From Synechococcus sp. PCC 7502 (GTDB lineage Bacteria > Cyanobacteriota > Cyanobacteriia > Pseudanabaenales > Pseudanabaenaceae): a stretch of 64,000 nucleotides of DNA. Position 1 is the stretch's first letter; the number at the start of each line of letters is the position of its first letter. The stretch lies in NCBI RefSeq assembly GCF_000317085.1, contig NC_019702.1, positions 248,001 to 312,000 on the forward strand. Direction: 5' to 3'. A program made the translations under genes and the position numbers. This document shows, piece by piece, positions 2,906 through 62,178 of the stretch. The notes below the pieces were generated by a model that was given only the letters and a program-made list of their open reading frames with translations, was not told the origin of the DNA and ran no database searches.

Positions 2906-2934
2906 ATTTACAGTCTTTTGTAGGCTTGTGTAGT
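2906..2934 (-). repeat. Dispersed intergenic repeat, copy A
   Basis: On the minus strand this carries CCTACAAAAGACTGTAAAT preceded by ACTACACAAG. The same 19-mer is present exactly at 33127-33145, where the preceding bases also match with a few substitutions, and its 14-base core AAAAGACTGTAAAT recurs at 31027-31040. All three copies are intergenic. This copy sits between ndhO and the pentapeptide gene. Confidence 0.6.
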
Positions 2935-2939
2935 GATTT

Positions 2940-3152
2940 TTATTCTGCTTGCAATTGATCTTTATTTAGCCAGATTGGGGGAGTTGGGACGGCGGCAAAT
3001 TTAACTTGCACATATTCCCCCCGCAGTTCTACAACTTCACCTTTGGTTTCAAACACATAGGCAGACCAACGTGGATCATTAGCTTGTGCTTCCAGACTGC
3101 CCTCTAGCTTCTCACGGATTACTGTTACCAAGGCTCCTTTTTTCAGTTCCAT
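2940..3152 (-). CDS. ndhO: NAD(P)H-quinone oxidoreductase subunit O
   Basis: This 70-residue protein, the usual length for NdhO, is a small peripheral subunit of the photosynthetic NDH-1 complex involved in cyclic electron flow and respiration at the thylakoid membrane. Recognisable are the N-terminal [14 protein letters not shown] segment, the [19 protein letters not shown] core and the C-terminal [15 protein letters not shown] at 3152 is the start. Upstream lie 235 non-coding bases before the end of alaS. Identification rests on recalled similarity to cyanobacterial and plastid NdhO and is strong for so short a protein. Confidence 0.9.
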
Positions 3153-30933: not shown

Positions 30934-31026
30934 TAGTCAACTCTCTAATTTACTACAGCCTATTTGACAACTAAGGGATACTTTAGGGTGTGGGCTGCCC
31001 GCCACGCAGGGATTCCCCCGACACAT

Positions 31027-31040
31027 AAAAGACTGTAAAT
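31027..31040 (+). repeat. Dispersed intergenic repeat, copy B
   Basis: AAAAGACTGTAAAT is the 14-base core shared with copies at 2906-2934 (minus) and 33127-33145. Upstream of it, GGGATAC and GGGCTGC (30975-31000) also recur in the same order before copy C. Location: spacer ahead of the ndhF gene. Confidence 0.55.
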
Positions 31041-31225
31041 AGATTAAATCTATAAAAACCATAGGTTTTCTTCGTAGCTGGGAAGATAACATTACTTAAT
31101 TATCCTAAAATTGACGATAGATTAATAAAATATAAAATTTCTTCAAAATAACCTTGAACCTAGAAGTTTTTAGCCTGTTAAACCAACATCTTGAAGCTTC
31201 AGTTACGCACAATTACTTAATAACG

Positions 31226-33064
31226 ATGAATTTGACCGAATTTTTACTGCAAAAAAGTTGGTGGATCCCCTGCTATGGATTGATTGGAGCTCTGCTTACC
31301 CTGCCTTGGGCAACTGGGATAGTCAAGCGTACAGGTCCTCGTCCTGCGGCTTATTTTAATTTATTGATGACTGTAGTTGCCTTCATTCACGGCACAATTG
31401 TATTCCGCGCAATTTGGCATCAGCCACCGCAATTATTAACTTTTGAATGGCTAAGGGTTTTGGATTTTAACCTAAGTTTTAGTCTGAATATTTCTGTAGT
31501 AAACATGGGTGCAATGGAGCTAATCACGGGATTAAGCTTGCTGGCTCAGTTTTTTGCCATCGGTTACATGGAGAAAGATTGGGCATTAGCGAGATTTTTT
31601 GCCCTTATGGGCTTTTTTGAAGGGGCTATGAGTGGCTTAGCAATCAGCGACTCCCTTTTACTTAGCTACGGGCTATTGGAAATATTAACCCTATCTACCT
31701 ATTTACTCGTGGGCTTTTGGTATGCTCAACCCCTTGTGGTAACTGCGGCACGGGATGCTTTTTTAACTAAACGGGTGGGAGATGTAATTTTACTGATGGG
31801 GATTATATCCTTGGCATCGATCGCTGGGGATTTAAATTTTCCAAGCTTGTATAAATGGGCAGAAACTTCCGACTTATCACCTCCGCTTGCCACCTTATTA
31901 GGTTTAGCATTAGTCGCAGGACCTACGGGGAAATGTGCCCAGTTTCCTTTACATTTATGGCTGGATGAAGCTATGGAAGGACCTAACCCAGCGTCAATTT
32001 TGCGTAATTCCGTGGTAGTAGGCTGTGGGGCGTATATCTTAATTAAATTACAACCGATCATTGCCCTTTCGCCCTTAGCTCTTAATGCCTTAATTGTAAT
32101 TGGGGCTGTGACTGCCGTTGGTGCATCTTTGGTGGCGATCGCCCAAATTGATATTAAAAGAGCTTTTTCCCATACAACCAGTGCCTATCTAGGGTTGGTA
32201 TTCGTGGCTGTGGGCATGAATCAGATCAGTTTTGCGTTGATTTTACTATTTACCCACGCGATCGCTAAAGCATTACTATTTATGAGTGTCGGAGCAATTA
32301 TTTCCACGACTCAAAACCAAGATTTAACCGAATTAGGGGGCTTATGGTCAAAAATGCCCGCAACGACCATATCTTTTTTAGTCGGCTCCTTTAGTCTAGT
32401 GGCTGTACCACCTTTGGGGGGATTTTGGTCTTTGCTCCAAGGTTTAGATGCCTTTTGGGATAATCAACCCATTGTATTTTTAATCCTAACTGTAAATACC
32501 TTAACGATTTTGGGGCTAACTCGGGTATTTCGCCTAACCTTCCTTGGGGATGCTCAACCGAAAACTCGTCGTGCGCCCGAAGTACCTTGGACAATGGCAG
32601 TGCCAATGGTGTCTTTAATTATTGTGTCTGTGCTAATCCCTTTAATTATGCAAAGATTAGGACTCTTACCGCTATGGGCAGATATTAATAAAACGGCTGT
32701 AATTGACTTACTAATCTCCAGTGTGCTAGGGGTAGCGATCGGAAGCAATATTTACTTACACAAAGCATGGTCAAGGTCTTTACAATTGCCTTGGCGCGTA
32801 ACCCAAGATTTATTGGCATACGACTTTTATATAGATCGACTTTATCGTTTAACTGTAGTCTTTGCGGTCAATCAACTATCCCTGATTAGTGCCTGGATCG
32901 ATCGCTATGTCATTGATGGTTTAGTTAATTTAGTGGGACTATCCTCTATTTTCAGTGGAGAAAGCCTTAAGTACAGTACATCGGGACAATCCCAGGGCTA
33001 TATTTTCACAATTTTGCTAGGCATAGGACTCTTCACTTTATTCATAACTTGGTCATTGTTCTAA
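31226..33064 (+). CDS. ndhF: NAD(P)H-quinone oxidoreductase subunit NdhF, CO2-uptake type (NdhF3/F4)
   Basis: The product has 612 residues from ATG 31226; an upstream in-frame TTG at 31154 adds 24 residues with no family similarity. It is a polytopic antiporter-like subunit with about 15-16 hydrophobic segments. The conserved core ATGKCAQFPLHLWLDEAMEGPNPAS-like segment and KRAFSHTTSAYLG are present. The RTGPRPAAYFN opening and short length match NdhF3/NdhF4 of specialised NDH-1 complexes that drive CO2 hydration rather than the longer respiratory NdhF1. An ndhD gene follows in the same direction, as in those loci. Whether it is F3 or F4 was not decided. Confidence 0.88.
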   Translation: MNLTEFLLQKSWWIPCYGLIGALLTLPWATGIVKRTGPRPAAYFNLLMTVVAFIHGTIVFRAIWHQPPQLLTFEWLRVLDFNLSFSLNISVVNMGAMELITGLSLLAQFFAIGYMEKDWALARFFALMGFFEGAMSGLAISDSLLLSYGLLEILTLSTYLLVGFWYAQPLVVTAARDAFLTKRVGDVILLMGIISLASIAGDLNFPSLYKWAETSDLSPPLATLLGLALVAGPTGKCAQFPLHLWLDEAMEGPNPASILRNSVVVGCGAYILIKLQPIIALSPLALNALIVIGAVTAVGASLVAIAQIDIKRAFSHTTSAYLGLVFVAVGMNQISFALILLFTHAIAKALLFMSVGAIISTTQNQDLTELGGLWSKMPATTISFLVGSFSLVAVPPLGGFWSLLQGLDAFWDNQPIVFLILTVNTLTILGLTRVFRLTFLGDAQPKTRRAPEVPWTMAVPMVSLIIVSVLIPLIMQRLGLLPLWADINKTAVIDLLISSVLGVAIGSNIYLHKAWSRSLQLPWRVTQDLLAYDFYIDRLYRLTVVFAVNQLSLISAWIDRYVIDGLVNLVGLSSIFSGESLKYSTSGQSQGYIFTILLGIGLFTLFITWSLF

Positions 33065-33126
33065 CTTCAAGTTCATGCAAGTTCATGATTGAGGGATACG
33101 TTGGGGCTGCACCCCTACTAAGCAAA

Positions 33127-33145
33127 CCTACAAAAGACTGTAAAT
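33127..33145 (+). repeat. Dispersed intergenic repeat, copy C
   Basis: CCTACAAAAGACTGTAAAT is identical over 19 bases to copy A and shares its 14-base core with copy B. The 40 bases before it contain GGGATAC and GGGGCTGC, as before copy B. A 10-base tandem CAAGTTCATG (33068-33087) lies just upstream. Location: spacer between ndhF and ndhD. Confidence 0.6.
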
Positions 33146-33189: not shown

Positions 33190-34665
33190 ATGCTCAGTGT
33201 TCTCATTTTAATTCCCCTATTGGGAGTCCTAATCATTGGCTTATGGTCTTCTGCAAATACTCAGCATATCAAAACCTTAGCTTTGATCCTAGCGGGGATC
33301 GCATTGGGCTGGACAGTATTTTTAGGATGGCAATTTGATTTAAGTAATCCCCACTTTCAGTTTCAGGAATATTTACCTTGGATTGATACCCTAGGACTTA
33401 GTTACCAAATCGGTATTGATGGTTTATCCCTGCCGTTATTGGGACTAAATAGTTTGCTAACCCTAATTGCCATTTACAGTAGTGAAGACTCGATTAAGCG
33501 ACCTCGACTCTATTACAGTCTGATGCTTTTACTGAACAGTGCTGTGGTGGGTGCATTTGTAGCGCAAAATTTGCTGTTATTTTTCCTATTCTATGAGCTA
33601 GAGCTAATTCCGTTATATTTGCTAATTGCCATTTGGGGTGGTTCCAAGCGGGGTTATGCAGCTACTAAGTTTTTAATCTACACGGCGGTGTCTGGAATTT
33701 TAGTCCTTGGGGCATTTTTAGCAACGACTTGGTTGAGCGGTTCTCCTAGTTTTGACTACGATAGCCTCCTGATTAAATCCATTCCCCTAGGACAACAACT
33801 CATACTTTTAGGCGGACTATTAATTGGGTTTGGCATAAAAATTCCCCTAGTACCTCTGCACACTTGGTTACCCGATGCCCACGTTGAAGCTTCCACACCT
33901 GTTTCAGTCTTGCTGGCGGGGGTTTTACTCAAGCTTGGTACCTATGGCTTGTTACGATTTGGCTTGGGGCTTTTTCCCAGTGCGTGGACGATTTTGGCTC
34001 CGTGGTTAGCAACTTGGGCGGCGGTTACAGTTTTGTATGCTTCCTTAACAGCGATCGCCCAGACTGACATGAAAAAAATTGTTGCCTATAGTTCAGTGGC
34101 ACACATGGGGTATGTTCTACTGGGGGCAGCAGCAATGACTGATTTGGGAATCCTTGCTTCCATTTTTCAAATGGTTAGTCATGGCTTAATTTCGGCAATG
34201 TTATTTTTGTTAGTGGGTGTGGTCTATCAAAAAACTGGCAGTCGTGATCTTGACGTGCTGCGAGGACTGTTAAATCCTGAACGGGGTTTACCCCTAATTG
34301 GCACCTTAATGATCACTGGTGCTATGGCTAGTGCAGGCATACCGGGAATGGTGGGCTTTATTTCCGAGTTTCTGGTATTTAGAGGTAGTTTTCCTGTTTT
34401 CCCCGTTCAAACTTTATTATGTATGGTCGGTACGGGCTTAACAGGAGTTTATTTACTGATCCTGTTAAATCGGGCATTTTTTGGTCGGTTAGCAGAATCT
34501 AGTGCCAATTTGCCCAGTGTAGTTTGGGGCGATCGCCTGCCATCCATTGTCTTAGCGGTTTTAATTCTAGTTTTAGGGATTCAACCCAGTTTAATGGTGC
34601 GTTGGAGTGAATCAACATCGGTCTTACTAGCTCCACACTCGATCCAAGTTTCCAGCGTAAATTAA
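33190..34665 (+). CDS. ndhD: NAD(P)H-quinone oxidoreductase subunit NdhD, CO2-uptake type (NdhD3/D4)
   Basis: The 491-residue polytopic subunit belongs to the membrane arm of NDH-1. About 14 hydrophobic segments are visible, with FYELELIPLYLLI, KIPLVPLHTWLPDAHVEASTPVSVLLAGVLLKLGTYG and TDMKKIVAYSSVAHMGYV, the proton-antiporter core. It pairs with the ndhF gene 125 bases upstream. In CO2-uptake loci such a pair is normally followed by cupA or cupB; here a convergent ClC gene follows instead. Confidence 0.9.
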   Translation: MLSVLILIPLLGVLIIGLWSSANTQHIKTLALILAGIALGWTVFLGWQFDLSNPHFQFQEYLPWIDTLGLSYQIGIDGLSLPLLGLNSLLTLIAIYSSEDSIKRPRLYYSLMLLLNSAVVGAFVAQNLLLFFLFYELELIPLYLLIAIWGGSKRGYAATKFLIYTAVSGILVLGAFLATTWLSGSPSFDYDSLLIKSIPLGQQLILLGGLLIGFGIKIPLVPLHTWLPDAHVEASTPVSVLLAGVLLKLGTYGLLRFGLGLFPSAWTILAPWLATWAAVTVLYASLTAIAQTDMKKIVAYSSVAHMGYVLLGAAAMTDLGILASIFQMVSHGLISAMLFLLVGVVYQKTGSRDLDVLRGLLNPERGLPLIGTLMITGAMASAGIPGMVGFISEFLVFRGSFPVFPVQTLLCMVGTGLTGVYLLILLNRAFFGRLAESSANLPSVVWGDRLPSIVLAVLILVLGIQPSLMVRWSESTSVLLAPHSIQVSSVN

Positions 34666-61026: not shown

Positions 61027-62178
61027 ATGTTACAAGTCTTGGTAATTGATGATGATCCCGTCATGCGGATGATTCTTAAAAATGCCCTTCAAGAGCAAGG
61101 TTACTTGGTAATTTTGGCTAAGGATGGGCAGGAAGGTATTGATCTAGCTAAAAAGCATCACCCCGCTTTGGTGATTTGTGATTGGCTTATGCCCAAAGTT
61201 GATGGTTTAGAAGTTTGTCTACAAGTTAAGCAAGAACCTAGTCTTTACTATACTTTTTTTATTTTATTGACCTCACGCTCGGCGGTCGAAGATAAGGTTC
61301 AGGCTTTAAATCATGGTGCCGATGATTTTCTCTCAAAGCCAATTGACAAAATGGAATTGATTGCCAGTGTCAGAGCAGGGCTGCGATTATATCAACTCAA
61401 TCAGGACTTACAATTACAGAAGCAGCTATTGGTGGCAGAGCTAAATGAGGCAAGTGAGTATGTGCGATCGCTTTTACCTAAGAGTTTAGATCATAATGTC
61501 AAAATTCGCACTGAGTTCTTACCCTCTAGTCAGTTAGGCGGAGATTGCTATGATTTTTATTGGCTTGATCCCGATCATCTGGCAATTTACTTAATTGATA
61601 CCTCGGGGCATGGGGTTGGTTCAGCATTACTGTCGATTTCGATTTTAAATCTTTTGCGATCGCAATCCTTCGGTAAAGATAAATTTTACGATCCCAAAAT
61701 CGTCATGACCGAACTGAACCGTGCCTTTCAAATGAGTCAGCAGGGTGGTCGATATTTTACGATGTGGTATGGGGTATATCAGCAATCAGAACGCAAATTA
61801 GTGTATGCCAATGCTGGACATCCTACTCCCATTGTAATTTCAGGTAATCATGACAATCTTAAGATTAAACAATTACCAAGTCTGAGTATTCCCATTGGCT
61901 TTTTCCCTGATGCCGAGTACACCAGTGCCGAATTATTGATTGATAGGAATACTAGCCTTTATATTTTTAGTGATGGTATTTTTGAAGTAATGCAGGAAAC
62001 TGGGAGAATTTGGGGTTTAGCTAATCTGATTAAGTTATTAACCAATGAATTGCCTTTAAGTCAAAATATTACTGGTCAAAACTTCACGGCGGAGTGGGTA
62101 CGGGAACATATTCGTAAAGAAACCCCTGATGCCGATTTTAGTGATGATGTTTCTCTAGTGCATATTAACTTTCCGTAG
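61027..62178 (+). CDS. REC-PP2C (RsbU/SpoIIE-type) phosphatase
   Basis: The 383-residue protein has a receiver domain (1-120) with acidic residues Asp8-10, phosphoacceptor Asp52 (VICDWLMPKVDG) and the conserved Lys in FLSKPID. A short coiled coil (about 128-150) joins it to a PPM/SpoIIE phosphatase domain (about 165-380) with the metal Asp in LGGDCYDFYWLD, DTSGHGVGSALLS and FSDDVSLVHI. Phosphorylation of the receiver would control dephosphorylation of an STAS antagonist. Its stop overlaps the convergent STAS gene by 14 bases. Confidence 0.9.
   Translation: MLQVLVIDDDPVMRMILKNALQEQGYLVILAKDGQEGIDLAKKHHPALVICDWLMPKVDGLEVCLQVKQEPSLYYTFFILLTSRSAVEDKVQALNHGADDFLSKPIDKMELIASVRAGLRLYQLNQDLQLQKQLLVAELNEASEYVRSLLPKSLDHNVKIRTEFLPSSQLGGDCYDFYWLDPDHLAIYLIDTSGHGVGSALLSISILNLLRSQSFGKDKFYDPKIVMTELNRAFQMSQQGGRYFTMWYGVYQQSERKLVYANAGHPTPIVISGNHDNLKIKQLPSLSIPIGFFPDAEYTSAELLIDRNTSLYIFSDGIFEVMQETGRIWGLANLIKLLTNELPLSQNITGQNFTAEWVREHIRKETPDADFSDDVSLVHINFP

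Follow-up and report, generated by a model that had tools for sequence, protein, structure and literature searches.

The question which this locus raises is why one 14-base sequence, AAAAGACTGTAAAT, should lie beside three genes of the NDH-1 complex. It occurs exactly at 2906-2919 (-), 31027-31040 (+) and 33132-33145 (+) of the window, that is, the whole stretch of 64,000 nucleotides from Synechococcus sp. PCC 7502 which was analysed, and the elements at these places are referred to here as copies A, B and C. An earlier, sequence-only reading had reported the three sites, at 2.9, 31.0 and 33.1 kb, as always intergenic, and had proposed either a MITE-like or REP-like element or a regulatory site shared by NDH-1 genes. 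Its observations were reproduced in full. The 14-mer is exact at each place, copies A and C have 19 exact bases in common (CCTACAAAAGACTGTAAAT), the words GGGATAC and GGGCTGC are common to B and C, and no copy lies within a gene: B precedes ndhF, C occupies the ndhF-ndhD spacer, and A comes just past the stop codon of ndhO, upstream of a pentapeptide-repeat gene. The neighbours which it had named ndhO, ndhF and ndhD gave NdhO, NdhF3-type and NdhD-type matches at the family level.

With up to two mismatches AAAAGACTGTAAAT has five matches in the window against a shuffle mean of 1.21 (one of 100 shuffles reached five), and two 14-mers occur there at least three times, against none in each of 30 first-order Markov simulations. 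An exact search of the 3.58-Mb genome gave no site beyond the three in the window, and with two mismatches allowed there are 96 genome-wide matches to 80 for the reversed control. Since it stays near the control level, the 14-mer alone is no repeat, and as a repeat unit it was rejected; the family is visible only by a longer profile. The first 11 bases of AAAAGACTGTAAAT are the right terminal repeat of an element, AAAAGACTGTA, and its last three letters, AAT, are flanking sequence outside that element.

When the spacers holding copies B and C were compared by blastn with their own genome, 13 and 17 matches were obtained at E≤1, counts which take in the spacers themselves and chance matches. 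The aligned copies define a non-coding family of ~104 bp, TACAGCCTATTT...GGGGTGTGGGGCTGCGCCCCACGCAGGGG...AAAAGACTGTA, and eleven of them (alignment A2) were made into a sequence-only profile of 104 positions, R1. Against the genome R1 gave 41 matches at E≤1, a figure in which one place appears twice, once per strand; 27 matches reach E≤0.001. The expectation of further copies in the genome is therefore borne out by the element, in tens, and by none for the exact 14-mer. The features of the window are as follows.

30954-31037 (+): copy B, a complete 84-bp element with ends TACAGCCT...AGACTGTA and a partly eroded GC-rich core (R1 57.8 bits, model 1-104; blastn)
30954-30965 (+): left terminal repeat TACAGCCTATTT of copy B, read from the aligned copies
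31027-31037 (+): right terminal repeat of copy B, AAAAGACTGTA, which makes up most of the 14-mer
33082-33142 (+): copy C, with an inner deletion, the left terminal repeat lost and the right end intact (R1 34.2 bits, model 11-104; blastn)
2909-2934 (-): copy A, a right-end fragment only, 26 bp (R1 14.8 bits, model 79-104)
31226-33064 (+): ndhF, NdhF3 family, neighbour of copies B and C (NF005633, TIGR01960)
33190-34665 (+): ndhD-type subunit, neighbour of copy C (NF005060, PF00361)
2940-3152 (-): ndhO, neighbour of copy A (PF11910 [NdhO]; no NCBIfam match)

The 11 sequences of the R1 seed include copy B; copy C, which measures 61 bp, and copy A stand outside it. The match of copy A has an E value of 0.0015 within the window, but of 0.079, which is not significant, genome-wide. 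With filters off a fourth weak match appears at 61591-61619 (7.2 bits, E 0.36), which was taken for chance. At the gathering score Rfam had no match in the window.

The ends of the family, TACAGYCT.../...AGRCTGTA (in longer form TACAGYCTNTTT / GTACTACNCAAA...AGRCTGTA), form, over their outer part, inverted repeats which are short and imperfect, so that the terminal inverted repeats for which the sequence-only reading suggested looking are present. Both terminal motifs are retained, with at most one mismatch each, in 14 of the 27 loci at E≤0.001, and the 11-base right end recurs exactly or nearly so in many other copies. Copies which span the model measure 69-106 bp. Most of these have TA at both borders; it is absent on the right of one (L112). 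None of the 27 loci overlaps an ORF of 80 amino acids or more, to be set beside a control in which ORF overlap is limited to 20 bp or less for 6.9% of 5000 random 90-mers from the window. L127, one of the 27, consists of the core only and clusters with another family. Judged by ORF orientations, the genes on either side of a copy may be convergent, divergent or tandem. At 41 matches in 3.58 Mb one would expect 0.7 per 64 kb, and the three in the window are thus a mild excess, a figure to be read in the light of the window having been picked because of its three copies. The R1 consensus matched no plasmid record, nor did a 10-kb contig (C2) of the genome, a search in which the window genome's own records were possibly excluded. 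A pattern drawn from the core of copy B (GGGCTGCCCGCC) gave one exact place and six with one mismatch against five for its control, and was uninformative.

On these grounds we are confident that the three copies belong, in decayed form, to a single ~104-bp, non-coding, MITE-like family with terminal inverted repeats. Its size falls within the ~50-500 bp of such elements, it has no coding capacity, and its dispersed copies share common borders as well as inverted ends. We would suppose that a transposase acting in trans, probably a TA-targeting enzyme of the DDE type, mobilised the ends. Because of the TA borders and the CAG/CTG ends the candidate is presumably IS630/Tc1-like or of the IS427 group of IS5. 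Copies may then have landed at TA in AT-rich spacers, been tolerated because nothing was interrupted, and eroded. That they adjoin three ndh genes is most probably coincidental.

IS elements are numerous in the genome, with 22 DDE_3 (PF13358) and 79 DDE_Tnp_1 (PF01609) matches, and 40 loci were examined. Ends could be defined for three elements: TACCAAATCG (~1134 bp), which we take to be of the IS630 type, TATAGAGCCTGTTTCATATC (914 bp), which we take to be of the IS5 type, and AGACCTCTTGC (~900 bp). Each was considered as parent and rejected, none being equal to the ends of the family. One IS5-type end, AGCCTGTTTCA, resembles the left end of the family, AGCCTATTTCA, and differs from the right; we regard this as a hint only. 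The transposase partner which the sequence-only reading would have looked for was accordingly not found among the PF13358 and PF01609 elements of this genome. The IS load of this genome (G000; e.g. L062-L101) is high: 19 DDE_3 matches exceed the cut-off, 15 of the loci being 93-99% identical where aligned, and the many DDE_Tnp_1 matches include the 914-bp element. According to passages of PMC3542288, an autonomous partner is not required for MITEs of "type II".

Three other explanations have to be weighed against the MITE-like family. That an AT-rich 14-mer has simply recurred by chance might be argued from the small distance, noted above, between its two-mismatch count and the reversed control. 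Homology over 84 bp in copy B and 61 bp in copy C (57.8 and 34.2 bits), together with full-length copies elsewhere, argues against this, and of all the readings we hold it the least credible, although the case is weaker for copy A, where it rests on the 26 bp of the right end and the genome-wide E of 0.079. One might also think, instead of a DDE-type MITE, of a REP-like palindrome whose mobility depends on a RAYT (REP-associated tyrosine transposase). The family is indeed small and intergenic with palindromic GC-rich parts, and passages of PMC3733652 record REP families, GTAG-15 and GTAG-16, in cyanobacteria. The same passages describe REPs as sequences of 20-40 bp with GTAG or CGTC at one end; our family is ~104 bp long, bears inverted repeats at both ends and has no GTAG or CGTC tag at its border, which makes a REP improbable. 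Of the earlier alternative "MITE-like or REP-like", then, the former part stands, with its inverted ends, common borders and tens of intergenic copies, and the latter, given the 104 positions and the missing tag, is unlikely.

The third explanation, that the 14-mer is a regulator binding site common to ndhO, ndhF and ndhD, is the one which the locus itself invites: there are only three exact copies in the genome, each adjoins an ndh gene, and B and C lie in the same orientation upstream of ndhF and ndhD. Copy A, however, is downstream of ndhO, and the AAT of the 14-mer falls outside the border of the element. At the ndhF loci of 29 relatives, the loci which this comparison covers, none matches R1 (E≤10) and none holds the exact 14-mer. 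Moreover, the many other family copies in which the 11-base end is repeated adjoin diverse genes: 49 flanking ORFs at 25 loci other than copies B and C (one presumed duplicate having been dropped from 50) hit 60 Pfam families, no family having more than two members. Among the 25 of these 60 families that were listed there is no NDH subunit; CIA30, a family of the complex I assembly type, is matched by one flanking ORF. The enrichment near ndh genes which the sequence-only reading raised is not apparent among the families listed for the other copies.

A genome of the same genus (G001, 85% complete) is informative for copy C. Its ndhF stop and ndhD start are ~21 bp apart by eye, as against 125 bp here, so that the spacer lacks copy C and is ~100 bp shorter. 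The spacers have diverged and this is an approximate empty site only, not an exact one; the region upstream of ndhF is too different to compare. With stricter filters R1 had no match in G001 at E≤0.01. The absence of copy C from this spacer fits an insertion in the PCC 7502 lineage and not a conserved regulatory site. In the ndhF of G001 (L005) a TGA lies in frame a few codons ahead of the aligned stop. Taken with the 29 relatives and the diverse flanking genes, the sister spacer leaves the shared NDH-1 site very unlikely, and that part of the earlier proposal was abandoned in favour of the decayed MITE-like family. The practical value of the finding in the window lies mainly in preventing a false regulatory annotation near ndh genes.

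When R1 was searched against 58 genomes, PCC 7502 included, 21 matched, and they did so in two ways, by the ends or by the core. In G005, G011, G012, G040, G049 and G051, among others, it is mainly the GC-rich core that matches, and this core lies between quite different ends. This core, of ~46 bp, reads GGGGTKTGGGG(G)CTGCGCCCC(C)A.GCAGGGGTTTCACCCCTGCACCCC. A core model (R2) of 46 positions was built from 42 cores, these being the 42 of 66 kept in alignment A3 once near-duplicates had been removed, together with copies of the PCC 7502 genome whose cores were eroded or misaligned. By R2 the core is present in 29 of 145 genomes of cyanobacteria (PCC 7502 again included), belonging to 21 of 88 genera, and 22 of the 29 had given no sequence to its seed. 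Several genomes carry tens of copies, per-genome counts being limited by the 42 scored candidates.

The flanks of 128 core copies, chosen for passing an alignment score of 22 and having at least 40 bp on both sides, were clustered. Average linkage gave 24 clusters, 19 of them multi-copy, and single linkage nine, seven of them multi-copy, with one chain of 105 of the 128 copies which joins the TACAG family to TATAGC types; the number of end types therefore depends on the method. Even by the most lenient clustering there are seven multi-copy end types, namely the TATAGC/TACAG chain, TACTCC, TAAGTAGG, GGATCG, CTAGTG, TATACTG and ATACCAATTT. At least three genomes (G000, G040 and G165) hold two or more end types. 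The PCC 7502 genome has the core in two families, TACAG and TACTCC, the second of which (L127, L129, L130 and L131) has the ends TACTCCTTTCCC.../...GGGAAGGGAGTA around the same core. Elsewhere, too, the core sits within MITE-like families with different ends (loci L243-L282 and L308-L397). The core is a module common to the PCC 7502 family and to other MITE-like families whose ends differ from it.

In the better-kept copies the GC-rich core can form two hairpins. The best-scoring copy of the PCC 7502 genome (L102) folds better than its shuffles on either strand (z -3.84 and -2.71); another (L104) does hardly better (z -1.09), and copies B (z -0.73 and 0.60) and C (z 0.67) show no advantage over theirs. 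By RNAalifold, A1 has no predicted pair and A3 has four. For the two named hairpins 88.4% of the cells of A3 are paired against 84.1% in shuffles, and there are 26 double-sided cells against 12.9, a pairing signal of which part is stem-length change aligned without gaps. Pairs changed on both sides do not exceed the shuffles in A3 (68 of 500 were as high), nor do further pair types (95 of 500).

The hairpin loops occur in both orientations among the copies of one genome in G005, G072, G100 and G148. The first loop reads TGC in 15 and GCA in two of 20 copies in G005, TTC in 10 and GAA in one of 13 in G072, and TTC in seven and GAA in two of 12 in G148. For the second loop the figures are TTCCA 14 and TGGAA one of 20 (G005), and TTTCA four and TGAAA three of 13 (G072). 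In these counts loops which the search expression could not parse are tallied as unparsed. No reversed loop was counted among the 10 copies each of G011 and G012. We infer that loop reversals of this sort would result from inversion between a hairpin's two arms, as if the hairpins extrude.

The second way of matching R1, by the ends, is that of Pseudanabaena-like genomes, where related ends surround a different palindrome. The label rests on the element's matches, at 81-88% identity, to five plasmid records of Pseudanabaena galeata and Pseudanabaena sp. ABRG5-3. In this family (G014, G026 and others) the right end, GTACTACTCAAAGCCTCAATAGRCTGTA, resembles that of the PCC 7502 family, GTACTACACAAACCCATAAAAGACTGTA, when the two are lined up by eye; the left end, TACAGCGCTTTGCGCTTA, and the long palindrome which forms the core are unlike their PCC 7502 counterparts. 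For the end pattern TACAGCSYWTTGMGSYTT the match counts are 227 in G026 and 100 in G014; its reversed form gives three and six. Among the end matches listed for these two genomes no parent element with paired ends was seen. An 18-mer of G026, TATAGCCTTCTGAGCTTT, with six listed places, was tried as the end of an IS and rejected: it lies inside a larger repeat, and since three of its copies are identical also in the eight bases before it, it is not a border. In G026 one element of the Pseudanabaena type (L298, 111-450) carries two inverted-repeat inserts, TAGCGG...CCGCTA and AGTAGC...GCTACT, each at a TA which by eye is single in the uninterrupted paralogue L303. Insertion of one element into another thus occurs in this clade, and it is one way in which modules could be mixed.

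As an element, the one in the window is ordinary, its family being a further example of MITE-like repeats, and the common core is the better lead. We would suggest, tentatively and with more doubt than conviction, that the core is an independent cassette which has moved, across the cyanobacteria, from one MITE family to another, the ends of these families being unrelated. Should this be so, MITEs would be modular, with ends and hairpin payload interchangeable. The presence of one core within differing ends raises the question of whether cores are exchanged by nested insertion or by recombination, and of what conserves them. Three short core strings were not found in the literature searched, nor did we recognise, among titles and the starts of abstracts, an account of one core common to several MITE families; as an argument for novelty this has little weight.

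Several known classes of small repeat invite comparison with the PCC 7502 family. Elhai et al., in 2008, reportedly described very small mobile repeats of cyanobacteria, ~21-27 nt in length; like these, our family is tiny and presumably mobile, and it differs in its ~104 bp and its terminal inverted repeats. With the GTAG- or CGTC-tagged REPs, as presented in passages of PMC3733652, the family has in common that it is palindromic, intergenic and cyanobacterial. Unlike these sequences of 20-40 bp, tagged at one end, it consists of two inverted ends around a core. It comes closer to the MITEs, among them Nezha, a cyanobacterial MITE (Zhou et al. 2008, as cited in parts of PMC3733652 and PMC10969869), a likeness of general kind. 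Passages of PMC3542288 give 147 MITEs for Anabaena sp. 90, 132 of them intergenic, and like these the PCC 7502 family is short, non-coding, multi-copy and mostly intergenic, with inverted ends. The "type II" MITEs of that strain are there said to have no similar IS ends in the genome, and for our family none were found in the two transposase families searched. What sets the PCC 7502 family apart from Nezha and the MITEs of Anabaena sp. 90 is that many of its copies are decayed and that its core is common to families with other ends.
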